Source of the DNA: a virus | Virus record (IMG/VR): IMGVR_UViG_3300028550_003281 | Location: 1 to 24,785 of that record | Direction: 5' to 3' (one strand) | DNA length: 24,785 nucleotides | Part shown: in pieces, positions 1 through 24,785 of the stretch | How the letters are laid out: each line of letters starts with the position of its first letter | Numbering within the stretch: position 1 is the first letter of the stretch | The notes under the pieces: generated by a model | Database searches by the model: none | Told to the model about the DNA's origin: nothing | What the model saw: the letters and a program-made list of their open reading frames with translations, nothing else | Made by a program: the position numbers and the translations under genes

Positions 1-351
1 ATCAAGGAAGCTATCCTCCCATCCAATGAACCCTAAGGTTACATCCCTCTGTTCATCTTCAGTCAGCGTAGGCATGAAGTATTTTTGAATGAAGTCGTGT
101 CGCGTTATGGTCGGTGGCTTAGTGTGCTCATCCACCATCTTGCATATGTCCTCGTATATCTTGTGCTTGTTACCCTTGAGTCCGAAGTACCGCTTGACAT
201 CAGTAACTTTCCAATGTCTGTTAGGTTTCATACCTATCTTACTCCATAACCCAAGATCCCGCTTGGATACTATGAGGTTCCACATCCCTTTGGATGATGC
301 CTTTCCGTTTACGGATAGGTCTTGTTCTAAGTCTTGTTCAAATTGTGTCAT
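1..351 (-). CDS. Hypothetical early protein, 3' end cut by window edge
   Basis: An open frame reads from ATG at 349-351 to the left edge with no stop, so only the first 117 residues are visible. The protein is basic and begins MTQFEQDLEQDLS. A central stretch, about residues 23-60, has the pattern WNLIVSKRDLGLW then HWKVTDVKRYFGLKG, which looks like a compact helical, possibly nucleic-acid-binding segment. I do not recognise the family. The start lies inside the last codons of the upstream gene (14 nt overlap), which fits translational coupling at the distal end of the minus-strand early operon. Confidence 0.75.
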   Translation of the reverse strand, partial: MTQFEQDLEQDLSVNGKASSKGMWNLIVSKRDLGLWSKIGMKPNRHWKVTDVKRYFGLKGNKHKIYEDICKMVDEHTKPPTITRHDFIQKYFMPTLTEDEQRDVTLGFIGWEDSFLD

Positions 352-604
352 CGTTGTGTTCTTTAATAAATTCTACTACTGCGTTGTATGTATCCTCTAT
401 AGATAGCTGAGATAACATCTCATCCTCTATGTTGTGGTACTTAAGTGCGTTATCATCATTGCAATAGTCTACTGACTCCTTGCACTTAATTACTACGGGC
501 ACCAACCAATCCCATGATGTATGGTATTGTGGTTCTTCGGGGACTAATATATCATCTTCATATATATACCCCATAAAGTCTGCTATTAGTTTGTTGTTGT
601 TCAT
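338..604 (-). CDS. Hypothetical acidic early protein (88 aa)
   Basis: Starts MNNNKLIADFMGYIYEDD and ends in an acidic, charged helix. It is rich in Asp and Glu, with no signal peptide, membrane segment or metal motif. Family not recognised. The start is preceded by AATAACATC, so it shares the ACATCATG ending seen at several other starts in this module but lacks the AAACCA core. It lies 4 nt after the upstream gene and overlaps the downstream one by 14 nt, as expected for an operon member. Confidence 0.75.
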   Translation of the reverse strand: MNNNKLIADFMGYIYEDDILVPEEPQYHTSWDWLVPVVIKCKESVDYCNDDNALKYHNIEDEMLSQLSIEDTYNAVVEFIKEHNDDTI

Positions 605-608
605 GATG

Positions 609-842
609 TTATTGTATTTCGATTGTTTCTATTGCGAATCTCATGTATGTACCTTGATTCTCATCGTCTATGTATAATTCCGAAGATGACTGCTCAAGTA
701 TGTGAATGTCCTCATCGTCTAAGTCTACCTCACTGAGTAGTTCTTTGTACCGAACTATTGCGTCAGGAAGTGATGCGAAAATCTCGGTCTCATTCTCTCC
801 ACATAGTGTGGATGCTTGTTGTACTGCGAATACTTGCTTCAT
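609..842 (-). CDS. Hypothetical acidic early protein (77 aa)
   Basis: Small acidic protein (MKQVFAVQQASTLCGENETEI...) with a run of Asp/Glu around residues 40-62. The N-terminal strand, the ENETEIFASLPDAIVRYKELL segment and the C-terminal RFAIETIEIQ strand suggest a small alpha/beta fold. No motif allows a function. Its ATG overlaps the stop of the upstream gene as ATGA (839-842), a translational-coupling arrangement. Confidence 0.75.
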   Translation of the reverse strand: MKQVFAVQQASTLCGENETEIFASLPDAIVRYKELLSEVDLDDEDIHILEQSSSELYIDDENQGTYMRFAIETIEIQ

Positions 843-1042
843 TTCTCAGGGTTTAGGTCGTTAAAAAATCTATTCTCGTATGGCTTACCTATTGGTATGC
901 GGTAGCTGAATGGGAAGGCTTCTTCTATCCTTCGCTTGTTCTCTCCGTCTGCCTTGAACCACGCTTCTATTAGAGCGTGTTGAAAGCCTCCGCCATGTCT
1001 CTGCTCCTCCCGAAGGAAGTCTATGTGTTCTTGGTCTGTCAT
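839..1042 (-). CDS. Hypothetical early protein (67 aa)
   Basis: Begins MTDQEHIDFLREEQRHGGGF, then a helix with KADGENKRRIEEAFP and a C-terminal RIPIGKPYENRFF stretch. Family not recognised. The start is preceded by AAAACCAGATAACATG: the AAACCA hexamer that recurs upstream of minus-strand starts, here 6 nt before ATG where a Shine-Dalgarno would normally sit. Ends in an ATGA overlap with the next gene. Confidence 0.75.
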   Translation of the reverse strand: MTDQEHIDFLREEQRHGGGFQHALIEAWFKADGENKRRIEEAFPFSYRIPIGKPYENRFFNDLNPEK

Positions 1043-1043
1043 G

Positions 1044-1238
1044 TTATCTGGTTTTACGTGTCATGTCATCAGTTACCTTGCCTATAAGCTCTCCGATTTG
1101 CAGTTCAAAGAACCCCTTCGCAAATATGCATCGATTACCTTTGCTTTCTATCTCGGTTATTTCGTTCTCACACGCTTCGATGTGATTGGTTAAAGCCTGC
1201 ACGATGATGTGGCTTTCCCATTGGTTGAATTTCTTCAT
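1044..1238 (-). CDS. Hypothetical early protein behind a tRNA-like leader (64 aa)
   Basis: Starts MKKFNQWESHIIVQALTNHI. Two helices with alternating charge (EACENEITEIESKG and LQIGELIGKVTDDM) suggest a small helical, possibly coiled-coil protein. No catalytic motif. It is the first gene after the tRNA-like element at 1263-1377, and the start sits behind a leader with AAACCATT and an ACATCATG ending. It stops 1 nt before the next start. Function unknown; what stands out is the structured RNA in front of it. Confidence 0.75.
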   Translation of the reverse strand: MKKFNQWESHIIVQALTNHIEACENEITEIESKGNRCIFAKGFFELQIGELIGKVTDDMTRKTR

Positions 1239-1261
1239 GATGTATATATATTAAATGGTTT
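1239..1261 (-). promoter_or_regulatory. AAACCA leader of gene 1044-1238
   Basis: Reading the minus strand, AAACCA (1256-1261) is followed by TTTAA, an A/T stretch and ACATC directly before the ATG. The AAACCATT(T/C)AA core and ATACATCATG ending are shared with the leaders at 2682-2703 and 2962-2983. The element begins one base after the discriminator base of the tRNA-like RNA, so 3' processing of that RNA would leave this leader at the mRNA 5' end. The function is inferred. Confidence 0.55.
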
Positions 1262-1262
1262 G

Positions 1263-1377
1263 TCAGAGTAGGTGGATTCGAACCGCCTTCTTCCTACCTA
1301 AGTAAACATATAGTAAAGGAATACCTATGTTTAATCAGTCCTTATGTAGGATGCATCACCTTAGATGCTTTACTCCG
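1263..1377 (-). ncRNA. tRNA-like RNA 1 with greatly extended anticodon arm
   Basis: Acceptor stem of 7 bp (1371-1377 with 1264-1270, one G-U pair) and discriminator A at 1263; CCA is not encoded. The D arm is GCAT/ATGC with an 8-nt loop containing GG. The T arm (1271-1287) has loop TTCGAAT and five pairs, one a C-A mismatch. A 4-nt variable region (1288-1291) precedes it. The anticodon stem TCCTAC (1346-1351) with GTAGGA (1292-1297) encloses not a 7-nt loop but about 48 nt that fold on: TAAG/CTTA, then TAAACATA/TATGTTTA (1326-1333 with 1303-1310) and a 15-nt apical loop. Total 115 nt, about 43 more than a normal tRNA of this layout. There is no anticodon in the canonical place, so a decoding tRNA is unlikely unless the insert is removed. 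Confidence 0.65.
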
Positions 1378-1449
1378 ATGTTGTGTAGTAATGTATTAGA
1401 TTCTGATGTCGGAATCGATTGCTAAGATACAACAAACAATTCGAAATTC

Positions 1450-1457
1450 CAAATCTA
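1450..1457 (-). promoter_or_regulatory. Candidate -7 box TAGATTTG upstream of tRNA-like RNA 1
   Basis: The minus strand reads TAGATTTG, matching the Bacteroidota -7 consensus TAnnTTTG, about 70 nt upstream of the tRNA-like RNA and just after the stop of gene 1475-1774. I see no clear TTG at about -33, and six fixed bases in A/T-rich DNA recur by chance, so support comes mainly from the position in the only sizeable gap of this operon. Confidence 0.35.
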
Positions 1458-1474
1458 ATTTGTAAGTCGCTGAT

Positions 1475-1774
1475 TTAGAATAGCTTAACGACCTTCATTC
1501 CGAGAAGACTTGCAACGTGGTTGACGTGCTTCTGCGTCGTTGCACTATACCACTGTGGTTGTGTAAGTATGCCCGAAGACTCCTTTCCATGCGCTACATG
1601 GGTGTCGTAGCTATAAACTTGGATGTAAGTTTCTCCGTTTACGTACTCGCTATATACCCGAAGGTTTTGCTTGTATTTCTTCATGTCTATCGATCTGGTA
1701 TGAGGCTCGCCCCATCTCCATCCTTCATCGCGCATTTCTTCGTATGTCTCATCGGCTTCGTCTAGTATGTTCAT
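1475..1774 (-). CDS. Hypothetical early protein (99 aa)
   Basis: Begins MNILDEADETYEEMRDEGWRWGEP. The middle (LRVYSEYVNGETYIQVYSYDT) is beta-rich and the C-terminus is helical. A Trp/Tyr-rich small domain with no catalytic motif I can name. The start overlaps the stop of the upstream 45-aa gene as ATGA (1771-1774). It is followed by a gap of about 97 nt containing a candidate promoter, so it may end a transcriptional sub-unit. Confidence 0.75.
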   Translation of the reverse strand: MNILDEADETYEEMRDEGWRWGEPHTRSIDMKKYKQNLRVYSEYVNGETYIQVYSYDTHVAHGKESSGILTQPQWYSATTQKHVNHVASLLGMKVVKLF

Positions 1775-1908
1775 ATTTTTGTTAGTTTTTCGTTAATAGT
1801 CCTTAGTTCGTTGACTGCAAATGCACTCATGTGAGCGTCATTAGCATCCATCCATCGGAGCAAGGTTTCCTTGTCTCGTAGTAGTTTATCTTTATTCATA
1901 TCTTCCAT
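1771..1908 (-). CDS. Small hypothetical early protein (45 aa)
   Basis: Reads MEDMNKDKLLRDKETLLRW and continues with DANDAHMSAFAVNELRTIN to a TGA at 1771-1773 that overlaps the next ATG. It is a charged, wholly helical peptide, probably a helical hairpin. The start is preceded by AAAAACCA 7 nt upstream, the same hexamer used by the neighbouring genes, which supports it as a real gene despite its size. Function unknown. Confidence 0.65.
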   Translation of the reverse strand: MEDMNKDKLLRDKETLLRWMDANDAHMSAFAVNELRTINEKLTKI

Positions 1909-1925
1909 ATCTTATTGGTTTTTAG

Positions 1926-2078
1926 TTAGTTACCACCGAACACCTCAAGCTCTGCTTCAAGGCAGAAGGCGTCGGCTACCATGTGAATGGCGTCGGTATC
2001 TCCGCACCATGAGTAGTATGCATAGGCTAGTTCTAGTTCTTCTAAACCTAGACCTATGAAGGGGTTGAAATCTATCAT
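1926..2078 (-). CDS. Small hypothetical acidic early protein (50 aa)
   Basis: Reads MIDFNPFIGLGLEELELAYA, then YYSWCGDTDAIHMVADAFC, ending EVFGGN. Strongly acidic and helical with two Cys. The start is preceded by AAAAACCAATAAA, with AAACCA 5 nt before ATG; this leader lies inside the last codons of gene 2080-2463. Family not recognised. Spacing and leader support a translated operon member. Confidence 0.65.
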   Translation of the reverse strand: MIDFNPFIGLGLEELELAYAYYSWCGDTDAIHMVADAFCLEAELEVFGGN

Positions 2079-2079
2079 T

Positions 2080-2463
2080 TTATTGGTTTTTGGGGTTAAT
2101 GTATATGCTCTCGTCTTTTGCGATGTCGTAGTACGCTAATTCGCCTCTACGCTTGCACTGAAACTCAGCACCTGATTCGGTGTCAAATAATTCTACTACG
2201 TCGAAGTGAATTTGTCCCTGATAACGCCACGTACCTAGTCCTAAATGCATTGAGGAATCTTCCTGCATAAGGTCCTCATACTCATCGAAAAGCCTTGCAA
2301 ACTCTATCGTGTCATTGCGGTCACATATGCCTTCACGTCCTGAACGTGCAACACCTCCGACAACAAAGCCTTTTTCCATTGTTTTGCCGTCGCTCCATAG
2401 CGTGTATCCGCCGTCCATCAGCGTACTTCCGTACGCCAGTCTGATTTTCTCTAGTCTATTCAT
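2080..2463 (-). CDS. Hypothetical early protein (127 aa)
   Basis: Begins MNRLEKIRLAYGSTLMDGGY. Glycine-rich strands (GYTLWSDGKTMEKGFVVGGV) are followed by an acidic helix (ARLFDEYEDLM) and further strands (GTWRYQGQIHFDVVELFDT). The layout suggests a small single-domain alpha/beta protein; no family comes to mind. The last codons (KNQ, stop) also carry the AAAAACCA leader of the next gene. No AAACCA motif precedes its own start; it begins 2 nt after the upstream stop and is probably translated by coupling. Confidence 0.75.
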   Translation of the reverse strand: MNRLEKIRLAYGSTLMDGGYTLWSDGKTMEKGFVVGGVARSGREGICDRNDTIEFARLFDEYEDLMQEDSSMHLGLGTWRYQGQIHFDVVELFDTESGAEFQCKRRGELAYYDIAKDESIYINPKNQ

Positions 2464-2465
2464 AG

Positions 2466-2681
2466 TTATCCGATTAAATCCTCAAGCGTCATTTGATCGT
2501 CACACGTTAGTGCGTCCCACTCGCTTGTGGTGGTTATTTGACTGAAATCCAACCCCTCGAAGAGGTTTTTCATAGCTTGTACTCGTAAGTCGTGAGCTAG
2601 TGTGTCGTTTTGAGGGACAATGCCCTTTGGGAAATGTGCTTCGACGAGTGTTCGTGCAAAGTCTTGCATGTTAATGTCCAT
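2466..2681 (-). CDS. Hypothetical early protein behind a tRNA-like leader (71 aa)
   Basis: Begins MDINMQDFARTLVEAHFPKG and is mostly helical and acidic (KNLFEGLDFSQI, DDQMTLEDLIG). No motif for function. It is the first gene downstream of tRNA-like RNA 2 (2713-2778), and its leader repeats the AAACCATT...ATACATCATG arrangement of gene 1044-1238. The two proteins are not obviously related; only the upstream RNA arrangement is shared. Confidence 0.75.
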   Translation of the reverse strand: MDINMQDFARTLVEAHFPKGIVPQNDTLAHDLRVQAMKNLFEGLDFSQITTTSEWDALTCDDQMTLEDLIG

Positions 2682-2703
2682 GATGTATGGGTTTAAATGG
2701 TTT
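2682..2703 (-). promoter_or_regulatory. AAACCA leader of gene 2466-2681
   Basis: AAACCA at 2698-2703 (minus strand) followed by TTTAA, a second near-copy AAACCCA, and the ATACATC immediately before ATG. It lies 9 nt downstream of the end of tRNA-like RNA 2 and is nearly identical to the leaders at 1239-1261 and 2962-2983. Confidence 0.55.
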
Positions 2704-2712
2704 ATAAAAATT

Positions 2713-2778
2713 GAGCATAAAGGGGAGTCGAACCCCTATCGTACCCTATGTACGCTTGTCACCCTATGTGCTTATGCT
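2713..2778 (-). ncRNA. tRNA-like RNA 2, shortened core
   Basis: A perfect 7-bp acceptor stem AGCATAA (2772-2778) with TTATGCT (2714-2720), discriminator C at 2713, and a perfect 5-bp T arm (AGGGG/CCCCT) with canonical loop TTCGACT (2721-2737). Only 34 nt lie between acceptor and T stem, too few for normal D plus anticodon arms. They form two mini-hairpins with the same pentaloop: CAC-ATAGG-GTG, and CGTAC-ATAGG-GTACG. There is no standard 7-nt anticodon loop with U33, so decoding is unlikely. Length 66 nt. It starts 6 nt after the stop of the upstream gene and ends 9 nt before the AAACCA leader. Confidence 0.6.
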
Positions 2779-2784
2779 TATGTG

Positions 2785-2961
2785 TTACTTGCACTGAAGG
2801 TCGCACGCTCGCTCCATCCAAGCGTCACGCTCGATTGTTAAGTTAACAATGTCTTTCTCCATTGACCTAACGTCAGTGAGTAACCTTTGAACTACTAATT
2901 GTAGTTCAATGACTTGCTTTTCTAAAGCCCTGCTGTATTCAAATTTTGTTTGTGTAGTCAT
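2785..2961 (-). CDS. Small coiled-coil early protein (58 aa)
   Basis: I place the start at ATG 2959-2961 (MTTQTKFEYSRALEKQ), because the ATACATCATG leader shared with two neighbouring genes lies directly upstream. An in-frame ATG at 3025-3027 would put the leader and part of a hairpin into coding sequence. From residue 10 on the protein is one long amphipathic helix (QVIELQLVVQRLLTDVRSME) with heptad-spaced Leu/Val, so a dimeric coiled coil is likely. It ends at two Cys near the C-terminus. Function unknown; it could be an anti-repressor-like or partner-binding small protein, but nothing proves this. Confidence 0.7.
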   Translation of the reverse strand: MTTQTKFEYSRALEKQVIELQLVVQRLLTDVRSMEKDIVNLTIERDAWMERACDLQCK

Positions 2962-2983
2962 GATGTATGGGGTTGAATGGTTT
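2962..2983 (-). promoter_or_regulatory. AAACCA leader of gene 2785-2961
   Basis: AAACCA (2978-2983, minus strand), TTCAA, then CCCCATACATC directly before ATG. It matches the leaders at 1239-1261 and 2682-2703, and it decides the start of the downstream gene. A second AAACCAT copy lies about 25 nt further upstream, beside the large hairpin. Confidence 0.55.
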
Positions 2984-3005
2984 GTAAAATTGATGGTACT
3001 AATAT

Positions 3006-3054
3006 GGTTTGTATTATATATCTTCATAAATGAAGAGATATATAATACTAAACC
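3006..3054 (-). promoter_or_regulatory. Long A/T-rich hairpin in the leader of gene 2785-2961
   Basis: Three helices stack: GGTTT/AAACC (outer 5 bp), TATTATATAT/ATATATAATA (10 bp) and CTTCAT/ATGAAG (6 bp), with small internal bulges and a 2-nt loop (3028-3029). It starts 9 nt after the stop of gene 3064-3489 and replaces, in position, the tRNA-like RNAs found before the other AAACCATT leaders. No U-run follows, so it is not a standard intrinsic terminator. An RNA-processing or stability element is a reasonable inference. Confidence 0.55.
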
Positions 3055-3063
3055 TTATAAGAG

Positions 3064-3489
3064 TTAGAAGGGAGCGTCTTCGGAAAGTGTCGCTTCGAAC
3101 TCAGCCACCGCAAGTGCATCCGCTTCCAGCATACGCTTGGTGCGGAGTTTCGCCATTGCTACTTCGACTGTCTCTCCTTCGGAGAGTACGTACACCGCCT
3201 CACGTCGAGATTGGTAGCTTTTCTCAGCATCAGGCTCTAAGTACGTAGTACTTACACTAGCCTTAGCTTGTTGACGTTCCAACCTTTGGTTGCGACTCTT
3301 CGGTCTACCTGCTGCAGCCTTACGGGCTAGAGGATTCGACTTCGATGGTCTTGCCTCAACCTCTTCGAGGTTAGAGACTGCTTCCGTCAACTCCGTAAGG
3401 AGTCTCAGGGCTAGTGCCTTACGCTCCGCAGTGGGAGTGTATTTGGCTTGGTTTACTGCCTTTTGGCAGTCTTTGAAATTAACGCTCAT
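3064..3489 (-). CDS. Basic early protein, paralogue of 3610-3921 (141 aa)
   Basis: The N-terminal 45 residues (KDCQKAVNQAKYTPTAERKA... LTELTEAVSNLEEV) are nearly the same as those of the protein at 3610-3921, so the two arose by duplication. After a basic linker (KSNPLARKAAAGRPKSRNQR) it carries a unique helical C-terminal half ending in an acidic stretch. Function unknown. The duplicated helical head with a basic tail suggests a nucleic-acid- or partner-binding role. The start is preceded by AAAACCATCGAAGATG, with AAACCA 6 nt before ATG. It overlaps the upstream micro-gene by 11 nt. Confidence 0.8.
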   Translation of the reverse strand: MSVNFKDCQKAVNQAKYTPTAERKALALRLLTELTEAVSNLEEVEARPSKSNPLARKAAAGRPKSRNQRLERQQAKASVSTTYLEPDAEKSYQSRREAVYVLSEGETVEVAMAKLRTKRMLEADALAVAEFEATLSEDAPF

Positions 3490-3613
3490 CTTCGATGGTT
3501 TTAGTGATTGACATTATGATAAGAAAACAGATTGCTAAAGCAATGACGGATAGGAACTGCACAAACATGATGCTTTCAGCATCAGTAACAGCGGATAGGA
3601 ATTGCATACTCAT
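3479..3613 (-). CDS. Membrane micro-protein (44 aa) wedged between two paralogues
   Basis: ATG at 3611-3613 overlaps the stop of gene 3610-3921 as ATGA, and TAA at 3479-3481 lies inside the next gene. The product is MSMQFLSAVTDAESIMFVQF, then LSVIALAICFLIIMSITKTI, ending EDER: a short N-terminal part, one clear transmembrane helix at about residues 16-37 and a charged tail. The double overlap and the otherwise unexplained 120-nt gap between the paralogues support translation. Role unknown; single-span micro-proteins of phages often act on host membrane proteins, which is an analogy only. Confidence 0.6.
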   Translation of the reverse strand: MSMQFLSAVTDAESIMFVQFLSVIALAICFLIIMSITKTIEDER

Positions 3614-3921
3614 ACGGCGTAAACTTCAACCCCTTTCGGAGCAACCCCTTTAGGGGCTTTGATTACTGACTGACTACTTAGCATAGCTAAGAGTTGAGCC
3701 TTAGTTAGCTTCGCTAAGTCCTTCTTAGCCACCTTCGGTGTAGCTTTCTTCGTAGCCTTCGGCTTTGCCTTAGCCTTTGGCTTAACCTCCTTGAGGTTAG
3801 AGACCGCCTCGGTTAACTCCTTTAGGAGTTTGATTGCTCTTGCCTTACGCTCTGCGGTTGCTGAGTATTTAGCTTGGTTCACTGCCTTACGGCAGTCTTT
3901 GATGTTTATGTCTTTAGACAT
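3610..3921 (-). CDS. Lysine-rich, histone-H1-like early protein (103 aa)
   Basis: Start chosen at ATG 3919-3921 (MSKDINIKDCRKAVNQAKYS): it aligns with the start of the paralogue at 3064-3489 and lies directly behind an AAACCATACATCATG leader; an in-frame ATG further upstream would swallow that leader. The head (residues 5-45) is the shared paralogous helical domain. Residues about 46-75 are an Ala/Lys/Pro-rich tail (KAKAKPKATKKATPKVAKK) typical of histone-H1-like DNA-coating proteins, followed by a short LAKLTKAQLLAML helix. DNA binding is inferred from composition. It is the first gene of the minus-strand module. Confidence 0.8.
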   Translation of the reverse strand: MSKDINIKDCRKAVNQAKYSATAERKARAIKLLKELTEAVSNLKEVKPKAKAKPKATKKATPKVAKKDLAKLTKAQLLAMLSSQSVIKAPKGVAPKGVEVYAV

Positions 3922-3933
3922 GATGTATGGTTT
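3922..3933 (-). promoter_or_regulatory. AAACCA leader of gene 3610-3921
   Basis: On the minus strand AAACCA (3928-3933) is followed by TACATC directly before the ATG, the short version of the leader repeated in this module, with SD-like 6-nt spacing. Confidence 0.5.
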
Positions 3934-3936
3934 ACT

Positions 3937-3956
3937 GCTCAGCGGAATTGCTAAGC
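3937..3956 (-). promoter_or_regulatory. Hairpin preceding the first early gene leader
   Basis: GCTTAGC and GCTGAGC (minus strand) pair over 7 bp with one G-U and a 6-nt loop AATTCC, ending 3 nt before the AAACCA motif. It is the fourth case in the module of a folded RNA element placed directly in front of an AAACCA leader. Confidence 0.45.
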
Positions 3957-4579
3957 CCAATCAAGGTACGACAATGAACAAGGGATATCCTAATTTTGAA
4001 GCAACTGATTCCCCGCGCCTTTTACCGAAGGTAAAACACCTGCGAAGAATCGGCGCATGTGAGCAGGTGATGTGCGCGTATGTACGCGAGGCTGATTTGG
4101 GGTGAATGAACGAATGGTTGGATTGTGGTGTGAACGTCAGTAAACACTGACAATGACAGACGATTGCCGAAGAGTGATGAGGTCGTGTGTATGTACGCAT
4201 GTTAGAGTTATACTCTAAGTCGTGTAGGTAGGGGCGTTGATTGTCACTAGCTTAGCTAGGGCTCGGGCGCACACGTGCATATTCCCACTCAGTGTAAACT
4301 ATGCCTTGAGGTGACCTCGTTCATTCATTTGGTTGTCAATAAGTTAACGTCAGAAGTTTGAGCAGATACGCCTACGATACGTGGACGGGGGGGGTCGTGC
4401 ATTTGCGTTTCCTGCGCGGATGTCAGCGCTCACAAGTATATATAATCCCCTAACTGAACATTTCTCACCATTTTTTTCAGGAATTTCGGATCTGGATTAC
4501 GGTCTTTACATTCCTCACCTACATTAAAGCATTAAGAGGCAGTTAATTACCCTCTGTTACTTAAATTTTTACTTTACTA
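3957..4579. other. Non-coding, hairpin-rich region between the two transcription modules
   Basis: No credible gene. It contains perfect short inverted repeats, three of them almost back to back: TTTTACC-GAA-GGTAAAA (4020-4036), CACCTGC/GCAGGTG (4037-4069) and CGCGTA-TG-TACGCG (4075-4088). Then come GTCAGT-AAAC-ACTGAC (4136-4151), TTAGAGT-TAT-ACTCTAA (4202-4218), CTAGC-TTA-GCTAG (4247-4259) and GAGGT-G-ACCTC (4308-4318). TATGTACGC recurs at 4079 and 4190. An 8-base G run lies at 4387-4394. Local base composition looks G/C-richer than the genes around it. It could be an origin, a structured leader of the minus module, or a small RNA locus. I found no TAnnTTTG box for the minus strand here. Confidence 0.5.
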
Positions 4580-4610
4580 TTGACTTTTCAAAAAAAAAGT
4601 TATACCTTTG
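4580..4610 (+). promoter_or_regulatory. Bacteroidota-type promoter for the late module
   Basis: TTGAC at 4580-4584, a 20-nt spacer with an A tract, then TACCTTTG at 4603-4610. This fits the Bacteroidota pattern of a TTG element near -33 and TAnnTTTG near -7. It faces the late genes and would give a 5' leader of about 150 nt before 4771. Confidence 0.65.
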
Positions 4611-4758
4611 CTATATATCTATTGCATTACAAGGCTAATCTATATGATTAGGGGTGTATGTATACACTATAAAGCATTATATAAGTTATATACGTGATAG
4701 CTGTCTTTTATTCGTGGAGTTGGCGCGACTTGTATAAATTTAGTTATTAAAGAAGTAG

Positions 4759-4766
4759 TATATTTG
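4759..4766 (+). promoter_or_regulatory. -7 box TATATTTG only 4 nt before the start codon at 4771
   Basis: TATATTTG matches TAnnTTTG and is separated from ATG by CTAC alone, so transcription would begin at or next to the start codon and give a leaderless mRNA. The same box and spacing recur at 12203-12210. A TTG lies at 4730-4732, with a somewhat long spacer. Confidence 0.55.
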
Positions 4767-4770
4767 CTAC

Positions 4771-5649
4771 ATGGCATTATTTGACAACATTAACTCTAGG
4801 TATACCCAGTCTATGGCTGAGGGCGGAACCTATCAAAGGGACGCCTCCGTAGGAGGGTACAGCAGAAAGGAGCTGAAGGGGCTCAGTAAGCAGGCAAAAA
4901 GCGGTTCCCTTACCCAGAGAGAGCGGGCGCGATACGAACACCTTAGGGGTGAACGCAAAGGAAGGCGAAAGAGGGGACTGCTTGCGGGACTTGGTGGGGC
5001 AGCCGCTCTAGCAGGTGGTTTAGCTGCAGCTGGAAAGCTCGGAGGAGGAAGCGGAGGCGGTGGTCTAATGGATAGTATAAAGAATAGATTACAGGCCAGA
5101 ACGGAAAGAAAGGCAGAAGAGGAGCAGTTCAACAGACGGGACGCTAACCTTCAGCAAGAGTTAAGAGATGATAACCTTGCAAGCGCTATTGAGGGGTCGG
5201 AAGATCAAGAAACTTTTTCCCGAGAGGGCCGAAATGCGGAGACTTATCAAATGAACCCATTAGGGGAGGAGGACGAAATAGAGGGTGATGAGAGCGGAGA
5301 AGAACTTGGAAGACAGGCAGCTGAAATGAGAGCAGCTAGGGATGCAGAAAGAGCTAGAATAGATGCAGACCTTCAGGATAATTTTGATTATAAGACTATT
5401 ACTTCAGGCGAGGCTCCTCGAGACTATGATGGGGATACGTTTGAAAGGCTCAATTTAGGAACAGGAACAGACACTCAAGATCGTAGTATGTTTAATGAAG
5501 AGTTTGGAGAAGGCGACCTATATGAGCAACAAACTGGAATGCCTATAAGAAGAGACGGGCCAAGAGCTAAGTTTGGGATGAAAGTAGGGACACCGAAACA
5601 ACAGAAGATAGATAGACTACGTAAATTTATGAGGAATAAATACAGATAA
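4771..5649 (+). CDS. Glycine-rich internal virion-like protein (292 aa)
   Basis: The basic N-terminal third (SRKELKGLSKQAKSGSLTQR, ERKGRRKRG) is followed by a Gly/Ala-rich hydrophobic stretch at about residues 68-98, which could insert into membranes. A charged, probably disordered Glu/Arg/Asp-rich region follows. The C-terminus is basic (FGMKVGTPKQQKI ... RKFMRNKYR). Similar composition is seen in internal or DNA-ejection proteins of tailed phages, so a virion role is inferred; the family is not recognised. First gene of the late module, directly behind a probable leaderless promoter, and its stop overlaps the next start as TAATG. Confidence 0.8.
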   Translation: MALFDNINSRYTQSMAEGGTYQRDASVGGYSRKELKGLSKQAKSGSLTQRERARYEHLRGERKGRRKRGLLAGLGGAAALAGGLAAAGKLGGGSGGGGLMDSIKNRLQARTERKAEEEQFNRRDANLQQELRDDNLASAIEGSEDQETFSREGRNAETYQMNPLGEEDEIEGDESGEELGRQAAEMRAARDAERARIDADLQDNFDYKTITSGEAPRDYDGDTFERLNLGTGTDTQDRSMFNEEFGEGDLYEQQTGMPIRRDGPRAKFGMKVGTPKQQKIDRLRKFMRNKYR

Positions 5650-6130: not shown

Positions 6131-7978
6131 ATGCAAACAAAAAGAAAAACCCCACCTAAACGCTTTACAGGAAGCTCAAAGAAAAAATCCTACGGAATAG
6201 GCGGTGCCGTAATGACCCTAGGTAAAAACTTATTACAGGGAAAGAAATTTGGAGATGGGATGTTTGGGGGTGTGCTTAAAGCTGGTGTTACCCCAGGGAG
6301 TGGAGTGGGTGCTGGACTTGGGTTAGCAGGTGCTCTTGCTGGTAAGTCAAAGAACCCCGCACTCCAGAAATTAGGTACAGGCTTAGGTATGGCTGGTAAT
6401 GTAGCTGGTATGTTTACTGGTGGCGGTGGTGGTGGAGCCCTTCAGGGGTTAGCGGGTAAGTTTGCAGGAGGAGGCGGGGGAGCTGGTTTTCAAAACATAA
6501 TGCAAACCCTAGGTAAAGGCGCAGGCGGAGGCGGTATGAAAAACATCCTAGGCAGTTTACTTGGAAATACAACCGCAGCGGACGGAATGAAAGTGTATGC
6601 CTCTGGAGGTTCTATACCTCGCATGAAAGTTTTGAAAAGCATGGAGCACGGAGGCACACATGACGGAGAAGACAGCGCTGCTCCTGGATATGATTTTAGC
6701 TTACTACCTACATCAGTAATCCAAAATGCAGCTTCAGGTAGTTTTGAACCAAGAGTAACATCTGGAGGTATGACAAAAGCATCCGACCGCAATACCGTTA
6801 CTACAGAAGATGCAAGAGGCCAAGGCGCTGCGGCAGGCGAAGAAGGTTTTCAGCAGGCTCAAAACCCGTCAAATGTAGGTGCGTTTAATCTCACAACAGG
6901 AGATGGTCAAAGATTTGATCCGACGACAAGTTCGCTAGACAGCGACCTAAGCGAAGAGCAACTCCAGAATCTTTTAAGTGGTGACTTTGGCCAAAAGCAC
7001 TTAAGTGGAGAAGGATCTCTCGATGATCAGTACCGTGTATACACCGCTGATGTCAATAATTATTTTGAGGAACAAGGGCCAGAAAAAATGCTGGAGGAGG
7101 TTAAGCAAAATATAGCCAACGACCCTGAATACGCTAAACACTTTAAAAACGCTAATGAGGATGATTTCGTAAATATAGCTTTAACAAAGGCTACAGATAA
7201 GTTGATAGGTCCAGCTCATGGGTCTTTATACACTATGAAAAAATCTGCACCTATGACGGCAGGCTACACAAGTCGAGACTATATTACAACCGTAGGTAAT
7301 CCATGGCAAAAAAATGATGGAGGTGACGGAGAAGATCCAAGCTCTAACACTTTTATAGCTTCTGTTGGCAACAAAGCTGTTCATCCTGATCATATTATGG
7401 ATCTCTATAGGATTGCAGAGGCTAACAATATAGATGTTCAAAAAGATTCCCCAGAGACTAGAGATTTTATAGAATCATTTATTAAGAAAACGGGTAAGTC
7501 TATACTGCCTAATGAAATGGGAGCCTATGATGGTGTATTTAAAAATTACGGACAAAAGATAGAGAACATTCGGGCTAGAGCCATGCGTAATGGAGATAAA
7601 TCTCAAAGTCGACTTACGATGCAAGAGTTTATGGAAATGTACCCCGATCAGGTTTTTGATTCCAATGTCTCGTATGGGGAGCCGTCAGAAGGTCAAGGCT
7701 TGAGAAAGGAAGAGAATATGTCTATCATTAAGGAAGAGCAAAGACCAGCCTTCGTGGAGGAGTACTTTAAGAGTAAGGGTATAACTAACCCTACTCTGGA
7801 GGATAGAGAATCTGCAGATAGCGCATACGAAAAAAATCCTGACATGTTTGCCAAGGTGATAAAAGACCTCACCCCTCGTAATATGCCTAAGTTTGCTCAA
7901 GGAGGGAGAGTAAAACTCATGAAAAAAGGAGGAAGAAGCTACGGCGGAGGCGGCGCTCTATCAGCCCTTATGCGTTAG
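6131..7978 (+). CDS. Large glycine-rich virion-like protein (615 aa)
   Basis: Residues 20-150 are Gly/Ala/Leu-rich with several GGGGG runs and hydrophobic blocks (GAGLGLAGALAG, GTGLGMAGNVAGMF), a composition known from phage internal or membrane-active proteins. Residues about 152-180 contain GMKVYASGG, RMKVLKSMEHGG and THDGE. The middle (about 250-560) is a charged, soluble domain with no motif I recognise. The C-terminus returns to FAQGGRVKLMKKGGRSYG and a Gly tail. The K-x-M-K-x-GG motifs are shared with several other small proteins in this window. Role inferred as an internal or tail-associated virion protein. Its stop overlaps the stop of the convergent gene 7975-8502. Confidence 0.8.
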   Translation: MQTKRKTPPKRFTGSSKKKSYGIGGAVMTLGKNLLQGKKFGDGMFGGVLKAGVTPGSGVGAGLGLAGALAGKSKNPALQKLGTGLGMAGNVAGMFTGGGGGGALQGLAGKFAGGGGGAGFQNIMQTLGKGAGGGGMKNILGSLLGNTTAADGMKVYASGGSIPRMKVLKSMEHGGTHDGEDSAAPGYDFSLLPTSVIQNAASGSFEPRVTSGGMTKASDRNTVTTEDARGQGAAAGEEGFQQAQNPSNVGAFNLTTGDGQRFDPTTSSLDSDLSEEQLQNLLSGDFGQKHLSGEGSLDDQYRVYTADVNNYFEEQGPEKMLEEVKQNIANDPEYAKHFKNANEDDFVNIALTKATDKLIGPAHGSLYTMKKSAPMTAGYTSRDYITTVGNPWQKNDGGDGEDPSSNTFIASVGNKAVHPDHIMDLYRIAEANNIDVQKDSPETRDFIESFIKKTGKSILPNEMGAYDGVFKNYGQKIENIRARAMRNGDKSQSRLTMQEFMEMYPDQVFDSNVSYGEPSEGQGLRKEENMSIIKEEQRPAFVEEYFKSKGITNPTLEDRESADSAYEKNPDMFAKVIKDLTPRNMPKFAQGGRVKLMKKGGRSYGGGGALSALMR

Positions 7979-20461: not shown

Positions 20462-20860
20462 ATGCCAACAACAACAGCAACACTTACACTAAATACCTCG
20501 GAATTTTCGGGCGGAGGAACTCTTACAAAGGCTGCCACCCTAACGAAGGCTGGTACCGCTACTGGAATAGATCAGTTTACTGGTGTATCAAGAGTATACA
20601 AAGCGGCAGCCACTAACGATATATCCGTAGTAGCTAACGGCGACTATACGGACGCAAAAGCACACAAGGTATATATTAAAAACACATCGGACACAGATGT
20701 AACTTCTTTCCTTCTTGTAGAGATGGCAAGCAATGTAATTCTTGGGAGACTTTACCCTGGGGACTGGTTGTTTCTACCTACAGACGGAACTACCGACATT
20801 AAAGTCTCAACCTCAGCGGCAAATATGTACTACGAATTTGCTGTTTTTCACGAAGGATAA
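20462..20860 (+). CDS. Tandem structural paralogue 2 (132 aa)
   Basis: MPTTTATLTLNTSEFSGGGT, TKAGTATGIDQFTGVSRVYK, KAHKVYIKNTSDTDVTSFLL, ILGRLYPGDWLFLPTDGTTD and MYYEFAVF. Closest to paralogue 1, sharing IDQFTGVS, AHKVYIKN and GRLYPGDW almost unchanged, while the ends vary. This fits duplication followed by divergence of exposed loops. It starts 10 nt after paralogue 1. Confidence 0.8.
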   Translation: MPTTTATLTLNTSEFSGGGTLTKAATLTKAGTATGIDQFTGVSRVYKAAATNDISVVANGDYTDAKAHKVYIKNTSDTDVTSFLLVEMASNVILGRLYPGDWLFLPTDGTTDIKVSTSAANMYYEFAVFHEG

Positions 20861-20871
20861 TATATAAGTAA

Positions 20872-21579
20872 ATGGCAACAGTTTCAGCATCATTAACACT
20901 TACTAGCGAGGATCTTACGACGGACTCTCTTTCTTTGTCGACTACCTCAAGTTTAAAAAAGGCGGGGCAGAAAAGGACTAATTTAGATAACACAACGGGT
21001 GTTGCTAGAAAGTCAACGGAGTCTACGGATCAGTATACTCTTTTCTATGCGGATGAATATACCGCAGATAAGGCCCATAAAGTGTATCTAAAAAACACAT
21101 CTGTAGTTGCTTCAGAATTTTTTACAGTGTCTTTAGACGACGAAGTTATGGGGAAGCTGTATGCAGGTGATTTTGCGTTTTTTCCGTGGTCAGCAACAGA
21201 TGGTACTAGGGAGGTTTTTACCTGTACAACAACAGGAACTTATGCGGCAGGAGACTCACTTACTTTTGATGGCGTAACTGTAACGTCTACAACAACTACT
21301 TTGGCCGCGATGAGTAATCTGCTTAGAGCCGCGACATACCCAAACTGGGTTGCATCAGGAACTGCTGACGCTGCTCAAGTAACCTTTACGGCAAAAAAAG
21401 CTAGAGCAGATCAAGAGATAGACGCGAGCGAATGGACCTTGGTTGACTTAGCTGATAGTAACGCTACTTTTGCGGTTGCAACCGTAACCGAGGGTCTAGA
21501 TAACGCATCAAATATTAAAATTACACCAAGTGTGGCTACAACCATGAAGTTAGAGCACGCATTACTATATGAACTATAA
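20872..21579 (+). CDS. Tandem structural paralogue 3 with inserted domain (235 aa)
   Basis: The shared scaffold is present (SASLTLTSEDLTTDSLSL, LDNTTGVARK, DKAHKVYLKNTSVVASEFF, GKLYAGDFAFFPWSATDG, and the closing MKLEHALLYEL), but about 100 residues (roughly 120-220) are inserted between the FFPW strand and the final strands. The insert (FTCTTTGTYAAGDSLTFDGV, MSNLLRAATYPNWVAS and AAQVTFTAKKARADQEIDAS) looks like a small independent alpha/beta domain with a Gly/Asp turn. An extra domain on a repeated coat protein is a usual way to add a surface-exposed binding or stabilising function. Its stop overlaps the next start as TAATG. Confidence 0.8.
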   Translation: MATVSASLTLTSEDLTTDSLSLSTTSSLKKAGQKRTNLDNTTGVARKSTESTDQYTLFYADEYTADKAHKVYLKNTSVVASEFFTVSLDDEVMGKLYAGDFAFFPWSATDGTREVFTCTTTGTYAAGDSLTFDGVTVTSTTTTLAAMSNLLRAATYPNWVASGTADAAQVTFTAKKARADQEIDASEWTLVDLADSNATFAVATVTEGLDNASNIKITPSVATTMKLEHALLYEL

Positions 21580-21992
21580 TGGGTAGTGTAACAACAACAT
21601 TAAGAATAACATCCGCAGACGTTTTAAGCACGGCGGTAAATTTAACCGCGACTAGCCTTTTAAATGCCGATAGTGGCACTTTAAGTAGAGCTAAGGTACT
21701 TAAGACCGCTGTAGATGCAAATGCCTTAGAGGTGTATACCTTGAACGACAAATCCGAATCTGCATATCTATATCTAAGAAATATGGAGGCAGATAAGGAA
21801 AGTTACGTTACTATATATAACGACACTGATTCGGATGGACACGTAGCTAAAGTTGGTGGAAGAGAGTTTTGTTTTATTCCAGTAGACGTCACGAAAAGCT
21901 ACAGAGTATTTGGAACAAGGGTGGATTCAATGGTTGAGTTTGCTATATTCGGTTTAGACAGCTCAGCTGCGGGACCATTTAATCAGAGCTAA
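21579..21992 (+). CDS. Tandem structural paralogue 4, most divergent (137 aa)
   Basis: MGSVTTTLRITSADVLSTAV, LSRAKVLKTAVDANALEVYT, SAYLYLRNMEADKESYVTIY, VGGREFCFIPVDVTKSY and MVEFAIFGLDSS. The order of elements matches paralogues 1-3 (N-terminal LRITSxDV strand, a YLYLRN strand for KVYIKN, GREFCFIPVD for GRLYPGDWxFIP, EFAIF for EYAVL), yet identities are few, so it is the oldest or fastest-evolving copy. Probable virion surface or tail protein. Confidence 0.75.
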   Translation: MGSVTTTLRITSADVLSTAVNLTATSLLNADSGTLSRAKVLKTAVDANALEVYTLNDKSESAYLYLRNMEADKESYVTIYNDTDSDGHVAKVGGREFCFIPVDVTKSYRVFGTRVDSMVEFAIFGLDSSAAGPFNQS

Positions 21993-22411: not shown

Positions 22412-23518
22412 ATGGAAGAACAATTTGAAAAAATGGAGATCTTTGATACTCCCCAAGAACTTGCTGCCTCAATTCAGGCAGACTCACAACCTACAACTAC
22501 AGAGGAGGCTCCCCAACAGGAGTCTCAGCCCGTTTCTGAGCCAGAAGCCCAGGAGCAACCGCCTCAGGAGGCACAGCCAGAGGGTCAACCTCAGGTAGAA
22601 CAACAAGAAACTAACGCTCCGCAGGAAACTGCAGAGCAACAACAATATTCAGACAGTCAGATAGAAGAGGCAGTGTTCACATACATGGGCGAAAAGCTCG
22701 GAAGGAACGTTACCTCTATGGATGACTTTATGAACACCCCGCAGGAGCAAGACCCTCTTGATGAAAGAATCGCCGCGATTGCTGAGTTTGTACAAGATAC
22801 AGGCCGCACACCGCAGGATTGGTTTAGGTATCAGTCATTAAATCCTTCCGAAATGGGAGATTTAACAGCCGTAAAGGTTGATATGGCTTCTAAGTATCCT
22901 AACCTATCTAACGACGAGGTAAATCTTCTTATCAAGAACAACTACAAGACGGACGTTGAAACTCACGGTGAGGAGCAGGTCCAACTTTCGCAACTGCAAC
23001 TTAAAATAGATGCTGAGGGAGCACGAAAGAACATATCAGACATCCGCCAAAAATATGCGGAACCTGAAGTTCAGCAAGCTCAGCAATCATCTTTTATTGA
23101 TGAGGACTGGATTAGTAAAATGTCCAATGACGTGGATCAGCTAACTGGGTTGGAATTCAACCTAGGGAACGAGAAGTCATTCACCTTTGGACTTAACGAA
23201 ACCTATAAATCAGAACTAAAGGATAAAAACACAAGGTTAGAGGAATACTTTGATCCTTTTGTCCGTGAGGACGGGAGTTGGGACTTTGATGCCCTTTCTT
23301 CGCACAGAGCCGTTATTGACAACATCGACCAGATTGTAAGCAGTGCTTACCAACAAGGTATAGGTGATGGTCAAAAGGGAATTGTCGATAGAGCGGCCAA
23401 TGTATCGACTGCTTCTCCAGGACAGGGAACTAACTCTAACCAATCTAATAACCCACTTGCAGAGCAAGTGAAAGACATCATGAGGAATAATTCTTCAAAG
23501 ATGACATTTAACATTTAA
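22412..23518 (+). CDS. Scaffold-like protein (368 aa)
   Basis: Immediately before the major capsid gene, the usual place of the scaffold. Residues 20-80 are a Gln/Glu/Pro-rich disordered segment (EEAPQQESQPVSEPEAQEQP). From 85 on it is mostly charged helix (DSQIEEAVFTYMGEKLGRN, DPLDERIAAIAEFVQDTGR, SNDEVNLLIKNNYKTDVE), with a C-terminal tail ending AEQVKDIMRNNSSKMTFNI. Low-complexity acidic head plus helical body and a short basic C-terminus are standard for phage scaffolds, which guide MCP assembly and then leave. No protease signature is visible. Confidence 0.75.
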   Translation: MEEQFEKMEIFDTPQELAASIQADSQPTTTEEAPQQESQPVSEPEAQEQPPQEAQPEGQPQVEQQETNAPQETAEQQQYSDSQIEEAVFTYMGEKLGRNVTSMDDFMNTPQEQDPLDERIAAIAEFVQDTGRTPQDWFRYQSLNPSEMGDLTAVKVDMASKYPNLSNDEVNLLIKNNYKTDVETHGEEQVQLSQLQLKIDAEGARKNISDIRQKYAEPEVQQAQQSSFIDEDWISKMSNDVDQLTGLEFNLGNEKSFTFGLNETYKSELKDKNTRLEEYFDPFVREDGSWDFDALSSHRAVIDNIDQIVSSAYQQGIGDGQKGIVDRAANVSTASPGQGTNSNQSNNPLAEQVKDIMRNNSSKMTFNI

Positions 23519-23529
23519 ACTAAGAAACA

Positions 23530-24785
23530 ATGGCAACATTAGGAACAGATAGAGCAGCAGGATCGGCAGGAAACCTACCTCCTATCGACGGAGCGGCTGG
23601 GCAATTCAGGATTACACCTGAGTCGTACACAACGCTCGACAATCTATTAAAAACAACAAAAGAGGAGCACATGCCTGAGCTCATCGAGACATACGGTGAT
23701 CAAGGTATCACTGGATTTCTTAAACTTACAGGCGCAATCAACAGCGGTGGATCTTCTGACGAAGTAAACTGGTGGGAGGCAGGTCGTCGTCACAAATCAT
23801 TTACATATGTAATTGCTGACACAGGTAACGCAAACGGAGCTTCTATTACTATGGGTGCAGGAGCAGACGCTTTCACATCTAACGTTCAAAAGAACGATGT
23901 AGTTATGGATAGCTCTACTGGAACACGATTCCTCGTGCAGTCTGGTGGATTTGCAACAGGGACTCCTGTTACAGCAGTACTTGTTAAGCTTGACGGATCG
24001 TCAGTAGATGTTTCTGCTGACCTCGACCTAGTAGGTGGAGAGTTTATTAAGCTTGGTAACATGTACGCTCAGGGAACAAACCAACCTACAGCATTCGACG
24101 ATTTCAACGCAGTGAAGCGTACTAACCCATATATGATCGTTAAAGATCGTTACGAGGTTAACGGATCACAGGCTACGAATATCGGTTGGGTAAACGTAGG
24201 TGGCGGAGAATACCGCTGGTTTATGAAGGGTGAGCAAGAGGCTCGCGCTCGTTTCGAGGACCGTCGTGAGATGATGATGCTTTTAGGGCAGCAGCACTCA
24301 GGTACTGCAGGTTTAGCTCTTGGTAGCGATCTTGCTGGTTCTGAAGGATACTTCTCAGCTATCGAGGATCGTGGAATCCAAGTAAGCAACGCTAACGCAA
24401 ACCCACTAGATTCATTCTCTGAGTTTGATGATATCATTATGGAGCTTGATAAGCAAGGTGCACCTTCTGAGTACGCTATGTACGTGAACAGAAAGCAAGA
24501 CCTAGCTATCGACGATATGTTAGCATCAGGTATTGCAACAGGAGTTACTGCTGGTTTACCAGGACAGTTCGGAGCATTCAACAACTCAGCTGATATGGCT
24601 GTACAGCTAGGATTTAAATCTTTCACTCGTGGAGGATATACATTCCACAAGCACGATTGGAAGCTATTGAACGATCCAACTCTTCTAGGCGCATCTAACT
24701 ACGTACAGGGAGCTATGATTCCTTTATCGCAGGTTACAGACGCACGTAGCGGAATGAAGGCACCAGCTTTATCTATGTCTTACAA
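23530..24785 (+). CDS. Major capsid protein, 3' end cut by window edge
   Basis: ATG at 23530 opens a frame (MATLGTDRAAGSAGNLPPID) that stays open to the right edge (418 codons). It follows the scaffold-like gene by 11 nt. Features consistent with an HK97-fold capsid protein: an N-terminal region with MPELIETYGDQGITGFLKL, a mid-protein FEDRREMMMLLGQQHSGTAG long helix, and beta blocks RSGMKAPALSMSY near the visible end. Codon use is noticeably richer in G/C-ending codons than many neighbours, as expected for a highly expressed gene. Identification rests on position and pattern. Confidence 0.85.
   Translation, partial: MATLGTDRAAGSAGNLPPIDGAAGQFRITPESYTTLDNLLKTTKEEHMPELIETYGDQGITGFLKLTGAINSGGSSDEVNWWEAGRRHKSFTYVIADTGNANGASITMGAGADAFTSNVQKNDVVMDSSTGTRFLVQSGGFATGTPVTAVLVKLDGSSVDVSADLDLVGGEFIKLGNMYAQGTNQPTAFDDFNAVKRTNPYMIVKDRYEVNGSQATNIGWVNVGGGEYRWFMKGEQEARARFEDRREMMMLLGQQHSGTAGLALGSDLAGSEGYFSAIEDRGIQVSNANANPLDSFSEFDDIIMELDKQGAPSEYAMYVNRKQDLAIDDMLASGIATGVTAGLPGQFGAFNNSADMAVQLGFKSFTRGGYTFHKHDWKLLNDPTLLGASNYVQGAMIPLSQVTDARSGMKAPALSMSY

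Follow-up and report, generated by a model that had tools for sequence, protein, structure and literature searches.

tRNA-like RNAs apparently unable to decode at early gene junctions of an uncultured tailed phage

Punctuation of polycistronic transcripts by transfer RNAs (tRNAs), which are cut out by RNase P and RNase Z, has been described in mitochondria. Short non-decoding tRNA-like RNAs, the mascRNA and menRNA of MALAT1 and NEAT1, are also freed by the same two enzymes; the acceptor stem and T-stem can suffice for RNase P, and the acceptance of long duplexes by RNase III is established for the early messenger RNA (mRNA) of phage T7. RNase P also cuts the phage M3 RNA, the C4 antisense RNA of P1 and P7 and polycistronic mRNAs (PMC11143913), and phage tRNA-Tyr counters Septu and retron-Eco7 (PMC13096335). 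We report here on the early region of an uncultured tailed phage represented by 24,785 bases (IMG/VR record IMGVR_UViG_3300028550_003281, the whole of which is hereafter called the window), where two tRNA-like RNAs, elements 1 and 2, stand between small genes. Both are tRNA mimics, seemingly incapable of decoding, and family A, to which element 2 belongs, is, judged by comparison with related phages, a newly recognised phage RNA family.

tRNA-like elements in the window and in related phages

All comparisons were made with metagenomic contigs, designated by G and L numbers, the closest relative of the window found being G001 (= L003). The two elements and the leaders that follow them are located as below.

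1264-1377, minus strand: element 1, a class-II-like tRNA mimic (from its fold, the copy in G001 and a tRNA-Tyr at the same site in G028)
2714-2778, minus strand: element 2, a family A member with one extra arm (from fold and comparison)
1256-1261, minus strand: AAACCA leader after element 1 (from sequence)
2698-2703, minus strand: AAACCA leader after element 2 (from sequence)

Element 2 is composed of a 7-bp acceptor stem (AGCATAA/TTATGCT), two arms sharing the loop ATAGG (CAC-ATAGG-GTG and CGTAC-ATAGG-GTACG) and a T-arm with a perfect stem (AGGGG-TTCGACT-CCCCT). Its folding z-score is -1.9, and folding energy alone is weak evidence here. The copy of G001 measures 47 nucleotides (nt) and contains the acceptor stem, a GCAC-ATAGG-GTGC arm and the T-arm without the second arm, the extra CGTAC-ATAGG-GTACG arm being found in the window copy and not in relatives; its acceptor reads AGCATGA/TCATGCT, changed from that of the window. 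Pattern scans of IMG/VR retrieved further members of family A, 45-47-nt mimics in which a D-like arm and a T-arm accompany the acceptor stem and the anticodon arm is missing. When 11 distinct members were aligned by hand in fixed blocks, the window row being scored without its extra arm, 171 of 172 cells were paired and double compensatory changes appeared at 10 of the 16 pairs (6/7 in the acceptor, 3/5 in the T-stem and one in the D-arm), a pairing that was equalled in none of 5000 shuffles. The T-loop consensus TTCGANT and the GG of the D-like loop are kept. This pattern indicates that family A is under selection for its fold and not for its sequence. Family A members are not decoding tRNAs, because they measure 45-47 nt and have no anticodon arm, and the compensatory changes argue that they are not decaying relics. 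A mini tRNA-like element with a different acceptor (TCCCCAC/GTGGGGA) and a different T-stem was also observed in another phage contig, L201 (minus strand, around 7297 of the reversed locus), and from this copy family A may be wider than the present phage group.

The position of family A is also conserved. It directly follows the homologue of a gene for 141 amino acids (aa) in nine of ten clustered relatives, several of which are near-identical contigs, the exception being G030; the gene downstream varies among relatives. In the window, a hairpin called H and a 58-aa gene separate the 141-aa gene from element 2. This junction comparison relied on automatic start codons, for which an ATG in the hairpin loop was taken in some relatives. 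The initial annotation had proposed comparing positions among related phages, and for element 2 the same junction is indeed kept, unrelated positions not being seen.

Element 1 has a 7-bp acceptor stem (CGGAGTA/TACTCTG, 1377-1371 with 1270-1264), a D-like arm (GCATC/GATGC) with a GG loop, a 3-bp arm whose loop TACATAA has an A at position 33 and hence no U33, a long variable hairpin between this arm and the T-arm, and a T-arm with one stem mismatch (GGCGG-TTCGAAT-CCACC). Its minimum free energy is -35.9 (z-score -3.7), and none of 200 shuffles folds as well. It is identical to the G001 copy at 113 of 114 positions, the neighbouring genes of the two phages being 64-87% identical; this copy is its one close relative. 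At the site of element 1, G001 has two mimics in tandem and G028 combines a mimic with a true tRNA-Tyr(GTA), the leader downstream, ACAAAYCATATAATATATAYATCATG, being nearly unchanged; this arrangement indicates that tRNA and mimic swap at this site while the leader is kept. A third mimic (GGRRGTGAAAGCGTT..TATGGGGTTCGAYTCCCC) was observed on the minus strand, around 5290-5365 in G001 and around 540-625 in G028, in tandem upstream of element 1 or of tRNA-Tyr. It is absent from the window, and the flanking sequence suggests that it was lost there. AAACCA starts 1 nt past the discriminator-like base of element 1 and 9 nt past element 2, the gaps initially given being correct.

Elements 1 and 2 and families A and B (the latter described below) all display a 7-bp acceptor stem and a T-arm with a TTCRANN loop, and a 5-bp anticodon arm with a 7-nt loop and U33 is missing from family A and element 1. 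ARAGORN predicted 0 tRNA genes in the window, Rfam returned nothing at E 1 for the window and no tRNA match at E 5 for short stretches of both elements. The initial description of the elements as non-decoding tRNA mimics is supported by family A, which has no anticodon arm and a selected fold. Several other identities were considered and set aside. An intron-bearing tRNA was one of them: when introns were allowed and thresholds lowered, ARAGORN returned mutually inconsistent low-score folds only. A kinship with transfer-messenger RNA (tmRNA) was rejected: the best Rfam match of element 2 reaches 12 bits for a gathering score of 47, family B has no tmRNA match in Rfam, and there is no tag reading frame, no pseudoknots and no alanine G3-U70, pair 3 being C-G or G-C. 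The remnant of an attachment site in a host tRNA gene was rejected on the presence and covariation of both acceptor strands, and intrinsic terminators on the lack of a T-tract downstream of the elements, the only scan match being a marginal one (stem 2736-2724).

Relatives contain a larger set of such elements. A descriptor combining a T-arm and a 7-bp acceptor, applied to both strands of 1.8 Mb of relatives, gave 80 matches, 43 of them canonical tRNAs, versus 4 in shuffled and 8 in reversed controls. Of 25 non-canonical elements, 22 stand a few nt past a stop codon and have the next ATG at a distance of 14-52 nt, and a start codon lies 3-22 nt downstream in all 43 canonical tRNA matches. The distance to the next start codon is weak evidence alone, and the swap at the element 1 site is stronger. 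Family B groups elements of 93-115 nt from the early regions of relatives, without a tRNA-type anticodon arm and with the pattern GTGAGYG-TYTGG ... TTGGTTA ... GGTTCGATTCC ... CRCTCAC. In 15 aligned sequences, double changes occur at 12 of 23 pairs, with a covariation of 0.341 versus 0.208 when shuffled and at most 0.15 when slid. The loops GTGATG and TTGGTTA are kept, and the family stands ahead of at least five different genes. It has no match in GTDB contigs and no near-full-length match in phage isolates, where partial tRNA-like matches only were retrieved. In L128, L138, L146 and G007, a conserved stretch (TTGATAAGNGAGGGGGCAAACT..TTATTAACAACTAA) lies downstream of family B and takes the place of a start codon. 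The idea that family B loops (TTTATTGGTTTA), complementary to AAACCAATAAA leaders, are antisense was dropped: TTGGTTA is also an ordinary D-loop match, AACCAATAA is rare (0-4 copies per strand in these genomes) and the window elements have no family B loop.

Other non-canonical layouts of acceptor and T-arm were observed near early-type hairpins in G017 (23701-23927, plus strand), G018 (1270-1381, minus strand) and G014 (23444-23490, plus strand). Relatives also carry tRNA-Ile and tRNA-Arg upstream of the terminase gene, and in some of them a 76-nt tRNA-like RNA (CCGCRAGTATCYCCTCAAGCTTATACCTTGTAGAAAGRGTAA..GGGTTCAAGTCCC..) replaces tRNA-Ile(TAT) at this place (L017 4027-4102, L081 2-77, G008 20580-20655 and G012 21566-21641; it is also present in L066, L071, L073 and L077). 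This RNA, which is not in Rfam, displays an apparent anticodon arm CAAG-CTTATAC-CTTG (UAU) surrounded by a covarying CCC/GGG helix and lacks a normal D-arm. Similar and mostly unannotated RNAs (80-83% identity) occur in Streptomyces phages and in the crAss-like Kehishuvirus 'tikkala', in the latter inside a tRNA cluster.

Organization of the early region

The window terminase and portal fall into PHROG families 6681 and 6547. By terminase, the nearest named relatives begin with an uncultured caudovirus (48% identity); the 'elemo' phages of Flavobacterium, about 60 kb in size, show 40% identity, and Cellulophaga and other Bacteroidetes phages come lower in the match list. The phage is of Bacteroidetes type. 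Small minus-strand genes, forming the early region, occupy positions 1 to about 4200, followed by a non-coding, divergent stretch (4200-4770) and, beyond it, by structural genes on the plus strand. Other features of the early region are the following.

3006-3054, minus strand: hairpin H, long and AT-rich (GGTTTA-stem-AAACC; from fold and covariation)
3937-3956, minus strand: small hairpin adjoining the presumed early promoter (from fold)
3960-3975, minus strand: presumed early promoter, extent approximate (TACCTTGA in the window, TACCTTTG in relatives)
3064-3489, minus strand: 141-aa early gene, preceding family A or hairpin H in relatives
2785-2961, minus strand: 58-aa gene, between hairpin H and element 2
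2466-2681, minus strand: 71-aa gene, downstream of element 2
1044-1238, minus strand: 64-aa gene, downstream of element 1

Hairpin H (z-score -7.3) pairs over about 16 bp and, past a bulge, over another 5 bp, a duplex that reaches the length of about 20 bp of an RNase III hairpin. More than ten relatives carry it in their early regions, usually directly after family A, with stems that differ and are always complementary, as in L205 where the base GGTTTA/TAAACC is changed to GATATA/TATATC; such covariation would equally fit a DNA palindrome. The first AAACC belongs to the hairpin itself, where it forms the 3' arm and pairs with GGTTT; a second AAACCA lies downstream. The small hairpin has a z-score of -3.1. 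The four structures of the initial annotation are all present, on the minus strand, and for element 2 the comparative evidence from family A is strong. A promoter-like motif, TACCTTTG in relatives and degenerate in the window, lies just upstream of the small hairpin, with which the early operon mRNA for this reason probably begins; promoter calls here are scans for a Bacteroidetes consensus. On the minus strand of positions 1-4200, TANNTTTG occurs only once, at 1457, about 80 nt upstream of element 1, and because of this single occurrence on the operon coding strand the elements are probably co-transcribed. The placement between genes of an early operon, proposed in the initial annotation, agrees with this single internal motif and with the conserved junctions.

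Proteins of the 141-aa gene and of a 103-aa early gene (3610-3921, minus strand) are paralogues forming one cluster, and their genes share a DNA repeat (3351-3476 and 3777-3902, 79%). No informative family matches were obtained for the early-gene proteins of the window, the early region had no match in phage isolates, and a protein search for relatives using window positions 6131-7978 found none. On the plus strand, TATATTTG promoter-like motifs were observed at gene boundaries (4759, 8535, 12203, 16333 and 20005), those at 4759, 12203 and 20005 lying a few to about 20 nt ahead of a start codon; this suggests many short or leaderless late transcripts.

Possible roles of the tRNA-like RNAs

The best single explanation, in which our confidence is just short of even, is that the mimics are a non-decoding tRNA punctuation, excised by host tRNA-maturation enzymes in a way that makes mRNA ends. 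The early region would be one polycistronic transcript starting near 3960, with tRNA mimics at the gene junctions. By sequence, the mimics retain the upper half of a tRNA, with acceptor stem, T-arm and a GG-containing D-like loop, and have no usable anticodon arm; host RNase P would cut each mimic on its 5' side, the 3' end being trimmed by RNase Z or by exonucleases. The cut would sever the upstream message a few nt past its stop codon and provide the next message with a new 5' end shortly ahead of hairpin H and/or of an AAACC leader, resembling the primary 5' end with its hairpin and AAACC leader, and the excised RNA may have its own function. The tRNA-like folds do stand between co-directional genes with short spacers, as in punctuation. 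A broader proposal, which we hold tentatively and with somewhat greater reserve, is that the phage lineage evolved minimal mimics without an anticodon arm in several independent families, the smallest of them 45 nt long. Host RNase P and RNase Z would excise these from the early polycistronic mRNA and would so serve the phage for its mRNA processing, and the freed mini-tRNAs would possibly act in trans.

Several observations weigh against punctuation. The 113/114 identity of element 1 goes far beyond structure and is more than a cut site needs. The first pair of family A is A-U in most members, its discriminator position is usually C and CCA is not encoded, which makes the efficiency of RNase P on this family uncertain. 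Family B has no nearby start codon in L128, L138, L146 and G007, and in a genome of such compactness any RNA gene would be expected to sit just ahead of a gene start. Finally, 9 of the 14 early genes have AAACC in the 40 nt ahead of them; five of these nine have no structure in front, and because of these five AAACC is considered a general early leader and not the mark of a processing site. The initial annotation was right in locating structures ahead of an AAACCA leader, but a placing of the leader by the element is not supported, the leader being generic.

The excised mimics could also be stable small RNAs binding a tRNA-handling enzyme or shielding the phage, for instance as a decoy for tRNA-cutting host defences or as a replacement for the tRNA that these cut, the cut in the mRNA being a by-product; we regard this role in trans as a strong rival, although less likely than not. 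The 99% conservation of element 1, versus 64-87% in genes, would suit such a role in trans, as would the loops GTGATG and TTGGTTA kept by family B ahead of different genes and the tRNA-Tyr at the element 1 site in G028; the very long variable hairpin of element 1, at a tRNA-Tyr site, would more precisely fit a decoy for variable-loop cleavage of tRNA-Tyr of the Septu/retron-Eco7 type. Against this, the stem sequence of family A varies freely while its junction is constant, the uninformative early proteins include no known partner nearby, and a decoy leaves the anticodon-less 47-mers unexplained. Punctuation in cis and a role in trans are mutually compatible and do not exclude each other.

Odd-shaped tRNAs or relics of phage tRNAs are an unlikely origin of the elements as a whole, even though the site of element 1 can hold a true tRNA-Tyr, relatives have tRNA-Ile and tRNA-Arg ahead of the terminase and the same phages contain an odd tRNA-Ile-like RNA, apparently anticodon-bearing: decay of family A is excluded by its compensatory changes, 45-47 nt leave no room for an anticodon arm, and ARAGORN and the Rfam tRNA model miss both window elements. 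It seems very improbable that the structures are other cis elements, with hairpins acting as RNase III sites or 5' stabilisers and tRNA-like folds protecting mRNA 3' ends or attenuating transcription without RNase P cleavage. Hairpin H, a long covarying duplex of a size accepted by RNase III, would agree with this, but the TTCGANT T-loop and the GG D-like loop are needless for a generic hairpin and yet kept, and the tails are not T-rich terminators, apart from the marginal stem 2736-2724. As for a chance resemblance to tRNA, compatible with the z-score of -1.9 of element 2 taken alone, its probability is negligible: the 80 descriptor matches versus 4-8 in controls and the covariation in two families refute it.

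Comparison with described systems

If the mimics are cut, they would show how many mRNAs can be made from one early promoter without a processing enzyme of the phage's own, and would offer RNase P, RNase Z and the CCA-adding enzyme minimal substrates of natural origin. With a role in trans, they would be candidate counter-defence RNAs. In either case current annotation overlooks them. In the open literature searched, which leaves out most subscription papers, we found no phage tRNA-like punctuation and no anticodon-less phage tRNAs or decoys; a conserved non-decoding mini-tRNA family at early gene junctions was likewise absent from Rfam, from ARAGORN output and from this literature.

The locus resembles mitochondrial tRNA punctuation by its tRNA-shaped RNAs between genes of what would be one polycistronic transcript, with minimal spacers and a close start codon, and differs from it in that its RNAs are mostly devoid of an anticodon arm, belong to a phage early operon and are known from sequence alone. 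mascRNA and menRNA, in contrast to the phage mimics, are eukaryotic, follow a long non-coding RNA and retain a reduced anticodon-side arm. The M3 RNA and the C4 RNA of P1/P7 are, like the mimics, phage RNAs other than tRNAs with tRNA-like features, and are cut by host RNase P (PMC11143913), but C4 regulates by an antisense mechanism, for which the mimics have no apparent target, and neither the structures nor the phages are related. The tRNA-like domain of tmRNA also lacks an ordinary anticodon arm, and family B recalls it by TCTGG near its 5' end and its T-arm GGTTCGATTCC, as does element 2 by its weak Rfam match, far under the gathering score; the tag frame, the pseudoknots and the G3-U70 alanine pair of tmRNA are missing from the mimics. 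The RNase III sites of the T7 early region are structured sites between early genes to which hairpin H may be similar in role, whereas the tRNA-like elements are not simple duplexes. The new part, not found in the sources searched, is thus a conserved non-decoding mini-tRNA family at phage gene junctions, organellar tRNA punctuation and single phage RNAs cut by RNase P being already known.

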